Assembly (NCBI GenBank): GCA_027063755.1 | Contig: JAMORD010000100.1 | Coordinates: 1 to 6,899, forward strand | Length of the DNA stretch: 6,899 nt | Direction: 5' to 3' | Origin: a bacterium | GTDB taxonomy: Bacteria > Coprothermobacterota > Coprothermobacteria > Coprothermobacterales > JAADFF01 | Shown: positions 48 through 6,822 of the stretch, one piece after another | Layout of the letters: the number at the start of each line of letters is the position of its first letter | How positions within the stretch are numbered: the first letter of the stretch is position 1 | Translations under genes and position numbers: made by a program | Notes under the pieces: generated by a model | What the model was told of the DNA's origin: nothing | Databases searched by the model: none | The model's input: the letters and a program-made list of their open reading frames with translations, nothing else

Positions 48-3011
48 CTATTGGTAATAGATTTCTATGCGATTCTTACCGTTATTTTTTGCAAGGTACA
101 TGGCCTTGTCGGCATTTTCTATAGCCCTTTCAAGGGGTATATCAGGTGAGGAGACTGTATATATGCCTATGGAGAGGGTTATCATATAGTGGGTAAGCAT
201 CAGATGATTTTTTATTTTTTCTTTTATTCTTTGGGCTACTTTAAGGGCTGACTGAGTATTTGAATATGGTAGTATGATGAGAAACTCATCGCCACCATAT
301 CGTATAGCCCTATCTGATATACGTATTTCTTCCATGATAATAGATGCCACTGTTTTTAAGACTTTATCGCCCTCTGCATGACCGTATATGTCATTGACAT
401 ACTTGAAGTTGTCAATGTCCATGAAGATAATAGATATGCTATGACCATCTTTTAGTGTTCTATTCCACATGCGAGGGGCGTCTTCAGTAAGAAACCATCG
501 TGAGTGTATACCTGTTAGGCTGTCAAATTTGGCTTTTTCTACAATAGTGAGTCCGTCAAGCATGTCTACTATGATAGATGCAAATCGTCTAATGGTTTTT
601 ACTGTTATAAGGTCAAAGATGCCGTCTGCATATCTATGCTCTGCATAAATAAGCAGTTTTCTGTCTCCTATTTTATAGGTTACTGTCACTGTGGAGGGTT
701 TCTCCGTTATAACATAGTCGTCTATATCGGGTATGTTTAGTTCTTCAATATCACCTATTAGTGAATAGGTGGCCTCAATATGGGTATCATTGCTTTCATA
801 TCTACCGTAGGCTACAAGATACGGTATATGTAGTCCTCTCAAGAGGTGTTTCATGACATCTTCTTTGTTGCTGCTACCTATGGCCGATATGGTTACCTCA
901 AGCAGGCGATTTTGCTCCCTAAATCTCCTAACAAGCGTTGATATGTAGGGATTATCCGGTTGTAGCAGTAAACCACCAGTTTCTTCTAATATATCTTGGG
1001 GGGCTATGCCTTCTATCTCGTCGTATAAAAATCTTGCGGTTAAGGCATGTTCTATGCTATCTGATGCATCTATATCTTTCAGCAGTCTGTATAGGTAGGT
1101 ATGTGTAATGGCTCGCTTTAGTATGTTGTCGCTTTGTGTATATTTCCTGACCATTGACCGAAGTGTTGCAATGGCATCATACTGTTTGTCTTTGATGTAT
1201 TTTCCCGATATATATACCAGTAGAGGATGCTTAATGGTATTCAGCGATGGCAGATCTATTTTTCCCTTTGCTATCTCTAATGCTATTTTCATTGTTTCCC
1301 ACTGTGGCGTGAAGTAAGGTACTACACCATAACTTTGCCACTGTCTGAGAATATCTTCCAGTGAGTTCCATTTTTCCTGATTGGTGGCCTCCATGGCCAG
1401 AAGCCTAAAGTATATGTTCTTGGCTATAACATGTTTGGTTTTGGGGATTAAACTCCGTATAGTATCAAGGTATAGGTGAAAGTCTTCTTCTCTTCCATAC
1501 AACAAGGCCGATTCGGCCATAGCACCGTATAGGTATATGGCTTCTTTAGGTCTAAACACAGATTTTAGCCCTGATGTGATAGATGTAAAGGTATGTTTTA
1601 CTGTGCTATATGGTATGCCGGCATATGGGGTTGTAATGAGCCAGTGTCCGAATGAGCTGCTACTGTGCATAATATCAAGACCTATGGCCTGCCAATACAT
1701 TGTCAGTGATACACGGGGTGATACATCTTCTTTCATCATGAGTGCCGTTGCAAGACTGCGAATAAGATGTCCTTCAAAGGCTTTAAATCCCTCTTTGCCG
1801 GAGATGTCTTCTATGGTGTCTCTTATCTTCTCGGTTGCACCATCTATGTCAGGCGCTTTGCCCAGATGTCGGGATAGTATTCTTAACAGGTGTACCTTGA
1901 TATGTAGAGGTATATCTTCTGGTATGGGATTCTTTTCTATGAGTTTGCGTATGTCTGTGCTATGCCTTGTAAAATGCACCATGTTGATGATGCCATATGC
2001 GGCATATACCTTATTGTGTCCTTGAGAAGTGTTATATGCTTTCCATAGGGATTCCCACAGAGTAGGGTGTATGTCAATATTTGTGCCTTCCATAATGACG
2101 CTAAGCATGAGTAGTAGAAGTGGGTCCTTTATACCCAATGTGTGAAATTGATTAAGCAATGTCTTTCCGTATGTACCCAGGAGTCTTGTGTATCCCAAAG
2201 CCAATATGGCGTATTTCAAAATGTCTTTATCTGAAAATATTTCTTCCGTTGTAAGTGTGCTTTCTATAAGGTGATACGCCGTGAGAAAATAGTTATCTTC
2301 TTCTATATAGCGGTGTAGAACTTTCTTGATGTACGGTATTTTTTCTTTCTTTAACGCTGTTGCGGCTATGAGGCCGCCGAGGAAACAAGGTTTGTCAAGT
2401 ACAGAGAGGGCTTGTTTGGCATGTTGTGGTGTGGCAGATACGATGAGTGTATAAATTTTATCTATGTCCCTAGGAATAAGGTATGGACTATCGGTATCTA
2501 TAAAAAGGTGTTTGTAATGTCCGACAGCGCTGGCATGTTTTTTGCTGAGGGCAAAGTTTTCTATGGCAAGTAGTGAAAGTATGTAATCGGTATCTGATGC
2601 CTTGATAAAAGTTTTTTTCTTGGGAATACGCAGGTATATATCTATATCTTTTTCTGTATTCAGTTTGGGGACGGTTCTCAAGAATTTTTCCACGGGAAAG
2701 TATATGCCTGGTAGATATCTGTCTATATACCATTTGTATATTCCTGTCTTTATTGAGATATATTCCATAGCCTGAAGGACAAGGGTACATGGTATACGTC
2801 CAAATGGCCTATCTCTTGTGCTGCTTTGCATTTCTTTAAGTACATATAAGTTCATGTGTGGTAGTTTGACATCGTGTTCTTTTACATAGAGCAATATTCT
2901 TTGTGCGATATTTTGCATAGGATAAGCAGATTGTGGAGTGGAGAGAGATATGTGCAATATATGCTCATCTTTAATGTCATGCTTAGTTTTTATAAGGTGG
3001 AAATGGGCCAT
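48..3011 (-). CDS. Large soluble diguanylate cyclase: helical-repeat region, GAF-like segment, GGDEF domain
   Basis: Predicted to make the second messenger c-di-GMP from two GTP. The C-terminal GGDEF domain spans about residues 829-987. It opens with the usual DSLTG-type motif and has metal-binding Asp in MDIDNF (about 865-868), an intact GGDEF signature (906-910), and an RISD I-site (897-900) exactly five residues before it, so it should be active and product-inhibited. Residues about 700-825 read like a GAF domain: the entry helix LLEVTISAIGSSNKEDV, a beta-rich middle, and an exit helix running straight into GGDEF. Residues about 130-690 are almost all amphipathic helices, resembling degenerate TPR-type repeats; I do not recognise the first 130. 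No signal peptide or membrane segment is seen, so it should be cytoplasmic. ATG at 3011 is preceded by AAGGGGAG, 9 bases away. It lies 26 bases after the flavin reductase gene on the same strand, probably one operon. The cyclase call is firm; the N-terminal domain call is tentative. Confidence 0.93.
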   Translation of the reverse strand: MAHFHLIKTKHDIKDEHILHISLSTPQSAYPMQNIAQRILLYVKEHDVKLPHMNLYVLKEMQSSTRDRPFGRIPCTLVLQAMEYISIKTGIYKWYIDRYLPGIYFPVEKFLRTVPKLNTEKDIDIYLRIPKKKTFIKASDTDYILSLLAIENFALSKKHASAVGHYKHLFIDTDSPYLIPRDIDKIYTLIVSATPQHAKQALSVLDKPCFLGGLIAATALKKEKIPYIKKVLHRYIEEDNYFLTAYHLIESTLTTEEIFSDKDILKYAILALGYTRLLGTYGKTLLNQFHTLGIKDPLLLLMLSVIMEGTNIDIHPTLWESLWKAYNTSQGHNKVYAAYGIINMVHFTRHSTDIRKLIEKNPIPEDIPLHIKVHLLRILSRHLGKAPDIDGATEKIRDTIEDISGKEGFKAFEGHLIRSLATALMMKEDVSPRVSLTMYWQAIGLDIMHSSSSFGHWLITTPYAGIPYSTVKHTFTSITSGLKSVFRPKEAIYLYGAMAESALLYGREEDFHLYLDTIRSLIPKTKHVIAKNIYFRLLAMEATNQEKWNSLEDILRQWQSYGVVPYFTPQWETMKIALEIAKGKIDLPSLNTIKHPLLVYISGKYIKDKQYDAIATLRSMVRKYTQSDNILKRAITHTYLYRLLKDIDASDSIEHALTARFLYDEIEGIAPQDILEETGGLLLQPDNPYISTLVRRFREQNRLLEVTISAIGSSNKEDVMKHLLRGLHIPYLVAYGRYESNDTHIEATYSLIGDIEELNIPDIDDYVITEKPSTVTVTYKIGDRKLLIYAEHRYADGIFDLITVKTIRRFASIIVDMLDGLTIVEKAKFDSLTGIHSRWFLTEDAPRMWNRTLKDGHSISIIFMDIDNFKYVNDIYGHAEGDKVLKTVASIIMEEIRISDRAIRYGGDEFLIILPYSNTQSALKVAQRIKEKIKNHLMLTHYMITLSIGIYTVSSPDIPLERAIENADKAMYLAKNNGKNRIEIYYQ

Positions 3012-3544: not shown

Positions 3545-3645
3545 GGATATCACCCCTCTACCTGTATTGTATCAGAGAAGATAGCTTATGGCATAAATAT
3601 GATATTTGATACTATAAATATAGGCGAGATGTGGAGGTGATGTTG
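3545..3645. promoter_or_regulatory. Divergent intergenic region between flavin reductase and chemoreceptor genes
   Basis: This 101-base AT-rich gap must carry the start signals for both divergent units. At its ends are the two ribosome binding sites: AGAGGGG on the minus strand (about 3553-3559) and GGAGG on the plus strand (3633-3637), each 8 bases from its ATG. Plus strand: TATAAA at 3613-3618 is a candidate -10 box, but there is no good -35. Minus strand: TACAAT at 3566-3571 is a candidate -10, also without a good -35 and very close to the ribosome binding site. ATAAATAT occurs twice in the same orientation (3593-3600 and 3614-3621), 21 bases apart, about two helical turns. No sigma-28 motility promoter with correct spacing was found. 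Confidence 0.5.
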
Positions 3646-5187
3646 ATGTTATGGCTCGTGTTTGCCATTGTGTTTGCTTTTAGCGTTTATGCTGCTTTTT
3701 CAGCTGGAGTGTGGTTTGGTATTGTAGATGTTTTGCTATTTGCCATATTGGGTGTTGTACTTTATAAGTATGCAAATGGGACATATGTTGAAGAGGTTGC
3801 GGTAGACAGGCAAGACAATCTGCTGACAAAGGACATGGTGAAGATGACAACACGGCTTGTTGAAGAGAACGAAAAGCTTAGTGTAGATGCCGATGCCCTA
3901 AAGGAGAGCACCGAGAAGTTGAGGGTGGCAGAGAGGTATTTGGAAGAGAGTGTTTCCGAGATACAGAGGGCTACAGATCTCTTATCTGAACGCATGGATG
4001 TACTGAAAAATTATTCTGATGAGGCCCTTTCTGCAGCCGAGAGTGCAAGCAGTGCCGGTGAGATGTTAAGAAGATTGTCAGAAGAGGGAGAAGAGGCACT
4101 AAAGAGAATGGAAAGCAGTTTGGAACGAATAGAGCTTGTTGATAAGCAGAGCAAGAGTATGGTGCAGAAGCTTGAAGAGAAGAGTAAGGGTATTACAGAA
4201 CTTGTGAATATTATAGAAAAGATAGCTGCCCAGACTAATCTCTTGGCCCTCAATGCCGCTATAGAGGCTGCCCGTGCTGGTGAGGCAGGGCGGGGGTTTG
4301 CCGTTGTTGCCTCTGAGATACGCAAGCTGGCAGAAGAGACAAAGAACACGGCTGAGCAGATTAGAGCAGTTATTGATGAGATGACACAGGCTGTTGCAGA
4401 GGTTATGTCAACAAGCGATAATCTATCGGAAGAGATGAGGGATATTGCCACTATTACAGGCGATGTAACATCTAAATTTACTTCTATTATTGGCGGTGTG
4501 GGTGATGTACAAAATAGCATAGAAAACATGGTGAAGCTTTCCAGTAGCACGAGAGATGTGGCGTCATCTATTGGTGAGGCAACAGCACTTGTTGTTTCTG
4601 CTATGGAGAAATTGCAGACGGAAACCCATGTGCTTGCCGATGTAACACAAAATATAGAGAAGGCCACAGCCGATGTTATGCATAGTGCATCTATTACATC
4701 TGATATCGTCAGTGAAACGGCAGAGAGGGTATTTGGAGCTTATGAAGGTGCTATTAGGTCCAAGATAGAGCCATTTGTAGATAAGGCTATGGCTATTGTC
4801 TCTTCTTATTATGAGAAAGAAAAGACAGGGCAGATGACAAGACAGGAGGCTCAAGAACGGGCCAAGGAAGAGTTGAGGAACATGCGAAAGGGAAGTCTCT
4901 ATATATTTGTCAATGATGGTAACTATGTATCGGTTGTCAATGCCAACAGAGACCTTGAGGGACAAAACCTTGAGCATGTCAAAGATCCTCACGGTGTTGC
5001 ACTTGTTAAAGAGATGGTAGACGGATCAAAACTGGCTGGTGAAAAAGGTAAGACACTGATATATGTGTGGCCCAAGCCAGGTACGGGCAAGAGTTCCCCT
5101 AAGATGTCTATTGCCAAGTGGTTTGCACCATGGCAGTGGTCGGTGGGAACGGGTATTTATATAGATGAAGCATTTGATAATAAATAG
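3646..5187 (+). CDS. Methyl-accepting chemotaxis protein with C-terminal cytoplasmic Cache domain
   Basis: A 513-residue chemoreceptor. Two hydrophobic helices (about 2-19 and 22-40) with almost no loop form a membrane hairpin, so there is no extracellular sensor. No clear HAMP follows; a long coiled coil (about 50-190) leads into the canonical signalling tip (about 193-229, with [18 protein letters not shown] and [18 protein letters not shown]) that binds CheA/CheW, then a returning coiled coil to about 365. Residues about 370-510 match a single Cache domain (sCache_2 type): helix with [20 protein letters not shown], then [14 protein letters not shown], a KDPHG turn (446-450), YVWPKPG (473-479), [10 protein letters not shown], and [15 protein letters not shown]. 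Cache domains normally bind small ligands outside the cell and precede the signalling domain; here the order is reversed and the sensor should be cytoplasmic. In-frame GTG/ATG codons exist at 3631-3640, but ATG 3646 is chosen because GGAGG lies 8 bases upstream. No C-terminal CheR/CheB-tethering pentapeptide is seen. The lipoprotein gene follows after 49 bases with no terminator between. Confidence 0.93.
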
Positions 5188-5236
5188 TTGTGATATTATT
5201 TAGTATAAAAGTACATTATTGGGGGAGGGGGAATAT
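5188..5236 (+). promoter_or_regulatory. Short gap before lipoprotein gene: ribosome binding site and weak promoter-like pair
   Basis: The gap has no hairpin terminator, which favours co-transcription of the chemoreceptor and lipoprotein genes. A strong GGAGG (5224-5228) in a run of purines sits 8 bases before ATG 5237 and fixes the lipoprotein start. TTGTGA (5188-5193) and TACATT (5212-5217), 18 bases apart, each match consensus at 4 of 6 positions and could be a weak internal promoter. The ribosome binding site is convincing; the promoter is not. Confidence 0.4.
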
Positions 5237-5839
5237 ATGTTGCGTAGGTTATCTATATGGGTAGCGCTGGTGTTAAGCATATCATTGATACTTATGGGCT
5301 GTGGTGCTACACAGCCGTCTACAGGAACAGGGGATACATCTACCCAGACAGGTGGTGCCACACAGACACCAGAGGCACACGGCACAGATATAGAGATTAC
5401 ATCTTATGTCATAGCCGATGGTGGCACATATTTTTATCTAAAGCCTGTCAAGGTGAAGGTGCACTTTGACTCTACACCAACCCTTGAAGATAAGATTAAA
5501 GTGGCATTGTCTTTACTTGCATCACCCACACTTGCCACTGCTACCACACAGGTGCCACTGCCTGAAGGAACGAAGGTATTGGGGGTAGAGGTGACAGGTT
5601 CTGTGGCCACGGTGAATTTCTCTAAAGATATTATGAAAAACCCCGGTGTTGGTGCAGAGGGCGAAGCCCTGGCCCTGTGTAGCATACCCCTTACGGCAGA
5701 GCAGTTTGGTATAGAAAAGGTCTATGTGCTTATTGAGGGACAGAAACCATCTGAGTCCAATGGATACATAGACTTTTGGGGCCACATAGGGTTTTATGAA
5801 CAGCCCCTTACAGCTCAAGGTTGTAAAGACACACCATAG
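5237..5839 (+). CDS. GerMN-domain lipoprotein
   Basis: A 200-residue predicted lipoprotein. A basic start (MLRR) and a hydrophobic stretch end in a lipobox LMGC, making Cys22 the lipidated residue after signal peptidase II cleavage, so the mature protein is anchored on the outer face of the membrane. Residues about 23-50 are a Thr/Gly/Gln/Ser-rich flexible linker. The rest fits a single GerMN domain: YFYLKPVKVKVHF, then a helix with EDKIKVALSLLASP, LPEGTKVLGVEVTGSVATVNFS, the GAEGEALALCSIPLTAEQFGIEKVYVLIEG block, and a short tail. GerMN is named for the spore germination/sporulation protein GerM and also occurs singly in envelope lipoproteins; its biochemical role is not well defined. An in-frame TTG at 5219 is rejected as start because the ribosome binding site lies inside that extension. 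It follows the chemoreceptor gene and may be in its operon. Its stop abuts the stop of the convergent gene. Confidence 0.88.
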   Translation: MLRRLSIWVALVLSISLILMGCGATQPSTGTGDTSTQTGGATQTPEAHGTDIEITSYVIADGGTYFYLKPVKVKVHFDSTPTLEDKIKVALSLLASPTLATATTQVPLPEGTKVLGVEVTGSVATVNFSKDIMKNPGVGAEGEALALCSIPLTAEQFGIEKVYVLIEGQKPSESNGYIDFWGHIGFYEQPLTAQGCKDTP

Positions 5840-6775
5840 CTAAACATTGAGTCCATAGATGTCTCTGTAGAAGGCATCTATGGACTTTCTTGCATGTATG
5901 TAAAAGAAGTTGTCTGGTATATCAATATCGTCTATCAGTGAGAACTTCATAAACATACATCTAAGACAATCCTCCCTTGGTTGTGATATGAGCTCCTTCA
6001 AAATGGCTCGTATATGACTGGGAAGGGGAAAAGATATATGCCTTCTGAATGTCAGGTGTCCGTAGATATATAGGGCTATAAAGACCTGCTTTAGAACCTC
6101 TGGGGTTAGCTCACGGTTGCGTTTATAGTAGTCTCCAATATCCATGTCTATACGGTCTATAAGCACATCTACCCTGACATCTTGTATTTTTCTACCGAGC
6201 ATATCTATACCCACCTGCGTGTGATGATTTTCTCCCCTCCTGCTCCGGTATGGTCTAACAATACGGTAGTGGCTCCAGTCTATGAGGTCTATGACATCGG
6301 CTATTGAATCGTCTCTGTCAAGGTCCTGTATCTCTTCCCTGAGGTGTTTCAGCTCCTCTATATACTCTTTGGTGTATTCAAAGTGCCGAAGATGCCTGTA
6401 TATGATGCTTGATATGCCATAGAGGTTAAAGTTTACAAGGCTGTCTAGCTGTGAGGTAATATATCTTTCCCATAGGGGGTGCTTGTATACTACGGCATCG
6501 GGGTTGGTGTAGCTATAGGCAAGGAGTACGCTGTCCATGTCTCCTCTTCCTATGCCTGTGAGAAAAGACTGAAGTGTCATATATGTAATGGTGATACCGT
6601 CCTCTGTAAAATAAACTTTGCCCGGGCTGTCCATGTACATGATACTTCTTATGGTGGGGAGGAATACCCCCATAAGACGAGAGGTGTGTTTCGCACCGAG
6701 TGTAAGCTTTTCATCTACCGATGCTATGTAAAGCACATTGGGCACTATCTGCTTGCTCTTTAGTTGTATATCCAT
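5840..6775 (-). CDS. Protein of uncertain family, possible degenerate nucleotidyltransferase
   Basis: A 311-residue cytoplasmic protein, with no signal peptide or membrane segment; I do not recognise it securely. Its layout recalls predicted nucleotidyltransferases of the DNA polymerase beta superfamily (RlaP/COG3541 type). An N-terminal strand YIASV (16-20) stands where GS is expected, MGVFLP (35-40) stands where the family has RGV(F/Y)xP, and a helix LQSFLTGIGRGDMDSVLLAY (68-87) with HPLWERYI (99-106) follows. Near the C-terminus a helix leads into HISFPLPSHIRAIL (246-259), like the RLxxExLxxGxIxFPL segment. If so, the catalytic Gly-Ser and DxD carboxylates are replaced (AS, and TSR at 31-33), so it would be inactive. 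A charged helical middle (about 135-170) and a CLRC pair (270-273) are also seen. ATG 6775 is preferred over ATG 6790 because GGGGGA lies 7 bases upstream of it; the longer form would have 316 residues. Its 3' end carries a strong inverted repeat. It is a real gene; the family is a guess. Confidence 0.8.
   Translation of the reverse strand: MDIQLKSKQIVPNVLYIASVDEKLTLGAKHTSRLMGVFLPTIRSIMYMDSPGKVYFTEDGITITYMTLQSFLTGIGRGDMDSVLLAYSYTNPDAVVYKHPLWERYITSQLDSLVNFNLYGISSIIYRHLRHFEYTKEYIEELKHLREEIQDLDRDDSIADVIDLIDWSHYRIVRPYRSRRGENHHTQVGIDMLGRKIQDVRVDVLIDRIDMDIGDYYKRNRELTPEVLKQVFIALYIYGHLTFRRHISFPLPSHIRAILKELISQPREDCLRCMFMKFSLIDDIDIPDNFFYIHARKSIDAFYRDIYGLNV
5850..5886 (+). terminator. 12-bp perfect inverted repeat, likely terminator for the lipoprotein transcript, inside the opposite gene
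   Basis: AGTCCATAGATG (5850-5861) and CATCTATGGACT (5875-5886) are exact reverse complements around a 13-base loop. On the plus strand the hairpin begins 10 bases after the lipoprotein stop, and the stem runs into TTTCTTG, a modest U-rich tract, which suits intrinsic termination. On the minus strand the hairpin lies within the last codons of the convergent gene and is followed by CAATGTTTAG, a weaker U context. The tract is short, so the terminator role is likely but not certain. Confidence 0.6.
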
Positions 6776-6822
6776 ATCAGTTTCCCCCATATATCTAATA
6801 TATCACCTTGATGTAGAGAAAG

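Follow-up and report, generated by a model that had tools for sequence, protein, structure and literature searches.

A chemoreceptor gene with a single Cache domain located C-terminal to the signalling domain and predicted to face the cytoplasm

Among prokaryotic sensors that lie outside the cytoplasm, Cache domains are considered the main kind, and for extracellular Cache domains signalling via a C-terminal membrane helix has been described as the only option; two families of the superfamily, YkuI_C and Diacid_rec, are termed principally intracellular (PMC4822843). The Cache domains solved as 5g4y, 4k08, 2qhk and 4exo are binders of small carboxylates, and in PscD seven residues touch propionate, of which Tyr90, His103, Tyr143 and Lys156 bind the carboxylate and Tyr90, His103 and Lys156 are called critical for this (PMC5062169). 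Sensors on the cytoplasmic side have also been described for chemoreceptors. Those of class IIIc are membrane-anchored and carry a cytoplasmic sensor (PMC8396549), and C-terminal CZB domains, which occur in many chemoreceptors, act on MCPs (PMC8262984).

Gene, domain order and membrane topology

The gene lies at positions 3646 to 5187 (+) of the 6,899 nucleotide stretch of DNA that was analysed (the window) and encodes an MCP chemoreceptor of 513 aa, identified from the open reading frame and Pfam and by an ortholog in a metagenome-assembled genome (MAG) of the same genus. A Shine-Dalgarno-like GGAGGTG, read from the sequence at 3633 to 3639 (+), is located 6 bases 5′ of the ATG at 3646, and the stop codon ends at 5187, so the coordinates given originally for the chemoreceptor are right. 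A wrong start concealing an N-terminal sensor was ruled out, as the in-frame ORF runs only about a dozen residues further upstream.

From the N- to the C-terminus the receptor comprises a membrane hairpin, a signalling coiled coil and a Cache domain. The MCPsignal domain (residues 168–311; 4147 to 4578, +) matches PF00015 at 5.7e-34 and has the conserved hairpin tip of MCP chemoreceptors. The signalling coiled-coil hairpin as a whole spans residues 56–360 (3811 to 4725, +), with arms of ~155 and ~149 residues and its tip near residue 211, and the single Cache domain follows at residues 365–511 (4738 to 5178, +). The original prediction had proposed this order and the absence of a HAMP domain; the order was confirmed by Pfam and is the same in the ortholog of the second species, and Pfam detected no HAMP match in the receptor at E <= 0.1.

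Hydropathy places two membrane segments within residues 1–42, joined by a loop only a few residues long (hairpin at residues 2–41; 3649 to 3768, +), which bears out the prediction of two membrane helices with almost no loop. Helices are present at residues 2–20 and 23–42 in a low-confidence model of the full-length receptor, and the hairpin is kept in the ortholog. The receptor does not belong to class I, whose sensor is periplasmic, as the few-residue loop between the membrane helices leaves no sensor outside. No later membrane helix was detected by hydropathy (no 19-residue segment above 1.2 after residue 60). Because no membrane helix follows the N-terminal hairpin there are strong grounds to expect that the Cache domain should be in the cytoplasm, as had been proposed; an outside C-terminus would be incompatible with an MCP signalling domain.

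Several other chemoreceptors, encoded on other contigs of the genome in frames of 365 to 587 aa, start with one or two membrane segments and leave scant or no space for a sensor outside the membrane. The lack of an extracytoplasmic domain thus seems to be common among the receptors of the source organism.

Fold and predicted ligand pocket of the Cache domain

Two Pfam families match the C-terminal domain, dCache_2 (PF08269; residues 367–509, 2.3e-30) and sCache_2 (PF17200; residues 375–508, 4.8e-28, 98.5 bits against a cut-off of 25), both above the curated cut-offs and far above chance. As the dCache_2 match covers only profile positions 43–186 of 298, one Cache module is present. When searched alone, the domain matched the solved Cache structures 5g4y (3.2e-23), 4k08, 2qhk and 4exo. 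An AlphaFold (AF2) model of the domain, made with 60 sequences for window positions 4690 to 5184, has a mean pLDDT of 93.7 and superposes on 4k08 with a Z of 21.3 (1.6 Å over 142 residues), on 5g4y with a Z of 21.2 and on 4exo with a Z of 20.2, followed by TlpB with a Z of 18. Residues 370–513, which had been recognised as Cache from the sequence, are thus a strong match to this fold by Pfam, by the search of solved structures and by superposition. Furthermore, the long N-terminal helix that belongs to the Cache fold is found in the model as its first helix (residues ~350–393; model residues 2–45), and is predicted to be unbroken across the junction of the signalling and Cache domains. As modelling of the full-length receptor, from an alignment of two sequences, gave a poor result (pLDDT 56.4), any geometry of this junction in the dimer is tentative.

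Alignment with PscD (PMC5062169) and 117 relatives locates the predicted ligand pocket at Y419, F421, N432, M457, Y473, W475 and K486 (4900 to 5103, +). Five of the seven PscD residues are identical (Tyr90=Tyr419, Met129=Met457, Tyr143=Tyr473, Trp145=Trp475 and Lys156=Lys486), two are changed (Trp92=Phe421 and His103=Asn432), and all seven are the same in the ortholog and the receptor. The position of His103 is occupied across the 117 relatives by His (102), Leu (14) or Met (1) and by Asn in none. With five of the seven residues kept, and Asn432 being the same in the ortholog, the pocket can be read as largely of the carboxylate type, with a single conserved change that is specific to this lineage. 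Tyr90 and Lys156 are kept but His103 is Asn432, and the domain is therefore not filed with the PscD-type group that binds C2/C3 carboxylates; it probably only works like it.

These residues favour a small carboxylate, or something close to it, over pH as the signal, and a carboxylate or close relative is, with moderate confidence, the predicted class of ligand. Against a carboxylate stand the replacement of the critical His103 by Asn432 and of Trp92 by Phe. There is some chance, though a modest one, that the domain is instead a cytoplasmic sensor for something other than a small carboxylate, be it an amide, an amino acid, redox state or pH; a ligand that is neutral or an amide could be favoured by Asn432, and structures of TlpB, a near neighbour in fold, contain bound urea and amides. 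However, Lys486, Tyr419 and Tyr473 are kept, the counterparts of which hold the carboxylate in PscD, and the TlpB pocket is unlike that of PscD (PMC5062169).

Conservation and distribution of the domain order

Looking for the same gene in relatives, as had been suggested, recovered the ortholog on GenBank contig JAADFF010000062.1 (Dictyoglomota bacterium L_MetaBat.91), a MAG of another species of the genus, where the hairpin, the signalling domain and the C-terminal Cache are all kept at 80% identity and the neighbourhood is syntenic with the receptor locus. The source genome is a draft of 251 contigs, and a chimeric contig or a frameshift that fuses two genes could give rise to an unusual order of domains. 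This explanation was rejected and has next to no probability, as the second species, in a separately assembled genome, carries the same gene in the same single frame, order and neighbourhood, and purifying selection acts on both sides of the signalling/Cache junction.

Between receptor and ortholog the dN/dS (Nei-Gojobori, with synonymous changes partly saturated) is 0.076 for the Cache and 0.22 for the hairpin, with values of 0.047–0.082 for the tip and descending helix. The Cache is also the best-conserved region, with 85% identity compared to 62% for the hairpin. Constraint on the Cache part is about as strong as on the signalling core, and weaker on the hairpin. With a dN/dS of 0.076 against 0.22 the constrained sensor would be the Cache rather than the hairpin, a pattern that would be predicted for a hairpin that serves as anchor and a Cache that serves as sensor.

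These values also bear on whether the Cache has lost ligand binding and now caps the bundle in a structural or dimerising role, with tuning by the hairpin (membrane state, compare class IIIm) or by array neighbours. A cap would be compatible with the change of the key carboxylate-binding His to an Asn unmatched in the 117 relatives, and with other MCPs of the genome, which likewise have membrane segments but little room for a sensor. It is nevertheless improbable, as the Cache and not the hairpin is the best-conserved part and five of the seven pocket residues are kept.

A putative lipoprotein with a GerMN domain (PF10646) is encoded at 5219 to 5839 (+), starting ~30 bases 3′ of the receptor stop; the gene keeps its position in the same-genus genome (L045, 4371–4955) and is possibly co-transcribed with the receptor. 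On the other strand are a 987-aa protein (48 to 3011, −) with a C-terminal GGDEF domain and ~820 N-terminal residues without a Pfam match, which is syntenic in the same-genus genome, and a 316-aa protein (5840 to 6790, −) which is well conserved there and for which Pfam and NCBIfam gave no match at E <= 0.1.

In a tree of 120 Cache domains the receptor and its ortholog form a pair with support of 100/100, located in a clade of poor resolution and long branches which also contains a same-genus dCache paralog (L046). As this clade is poorly resolved, the tree singles out no donor of the Cache domain.

The order of signalling domain then Cache was present in both of the two genomes of the genus examined, and sCache_2 had no match in the seven other genomes of the phylum that were examined. 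The Cache scan of 84,980 species genomes used a three-row alignment, and the best 80 Cache loci were taken: 69 hits were Cache-first, 11 were without a detected signalling domain, and the sole case of signalling then Cache among these best 80 was the ortholog. A further 30 loci, from 398 genomes of one phylum, included 26 that are Cache-first and none that is reversed. Pooling all loci, some of which overlap, gives 107 Cache-first hits, with the receptor and ortholog as the sole cases of the reversed order; these counts are samples around the nearest relatives and not a census of all Cache families. A profile of signalling domain plus Cache, run at strict thresholds on 103, 195, 80 and 398 genomes of four other phyla with part of the candidates scored, gave no match spanning both domains among the matches listed. 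Plasmids were sampled at five of 301 tblastn places, which is not a full census, and the two hits that reach toward the signalling side (H2 and H6) have the Cache at the N-terminus. In the literature covered, chiefly open papers, no MCP with a C-terminal domain of the sCache_2 type was described. The order of the receptor is rare among close relatives, and represents a rare domain order, well explained by domain shuffling, and not a new system.

Proposed working and comparison with described receptors

Both genomes contain genes for partners in signalling and adaptation, namely CheW, CheR, flagellins and a CheA-like frame of ~695 aa that has a CheW domain; the receptor can therefore feed the flagellar system. 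We think it probable that this is a membrane-tethered receptor which reads a small intracellular carboxylate, or a relative of one, with input at the C-terminal end of the coiled coil. Its ligand and signalling are inferred, and C-terminal input and the resulting behaviour are proposed by analogy with CZB receptors. The short hairpin would anchor a flagellar chemotaxis receptor to the inner face of the membrane, and the cytoplasmic, C-terminal single Cache would be its only recognisable sensor. The long first helix of the Cache would continue the descending signalling helix where the bundle is nearest the membrane, the usual place of HAMP. Binding of a small carboxylate (of the acetate, pyruvate, propionate or lactate type, or a variant picked by the His-to-Asn change) may shift this helix and so alter CheA activity via CheW, and the cell would steer by its own metabolite pool and not by the concentration outside. 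On a broader reading, about as likely as not, a Cache has been relocated from the front of a chemoreceptor to its back and has thereby come to lie inside the cell instead of outside; a domain that sensed carboxylates in the environment would now sense an internal metabolite and drive the bundle from the C-terminal end. If this is true, the Cache module would also function without a following membrane helix, and the receptor would offer a natural system in which to study taxis driven by metabolism and C-terminal input into a signalling bundle.

PscD, Adeh_3718 and the V. parahaemolyticus receptor (5g4y, 4k08 and 2qhk/4exo) share with the present receptor the Cache family and fold, an MCP output and most of the carboxylate pocket. 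However, their Cache precedes the signalling domain and lies in the periplasm, whereas here it is C-terminal and predicted to be cytoplasmic, with His103 changed to Asn and without HAMP. The receptor is also distinct from class IIIc, in which a cytoplasmic sensor precedes HAMP and the signalling domain; the present receptor has its sensor at the end and lacks HAMP. YkuI_C and Diacid_rec provide the precedent for a cytoplasmic Cache, although they are Cache families other than that of the receptor. YkuI_C is found on an EAL protein (YkuI) and Diacid_rec on sugar-diacid regulators, neither being known from MCPs. The earlier interpretation of the receptor is supported, but C-terminal input is in itself not new, since CZB does likewise (PMC8262984). 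The CZB chemoreceptors, such as H. pylori TlpD and Salmonella McpA, some of which are membrane-bound, share with it a cytoplasmic sensor on the C-terminal end of the signalling hairpin; CZB, however, is a zinc-binding domain and unrelated to the Cache of the present receptor.
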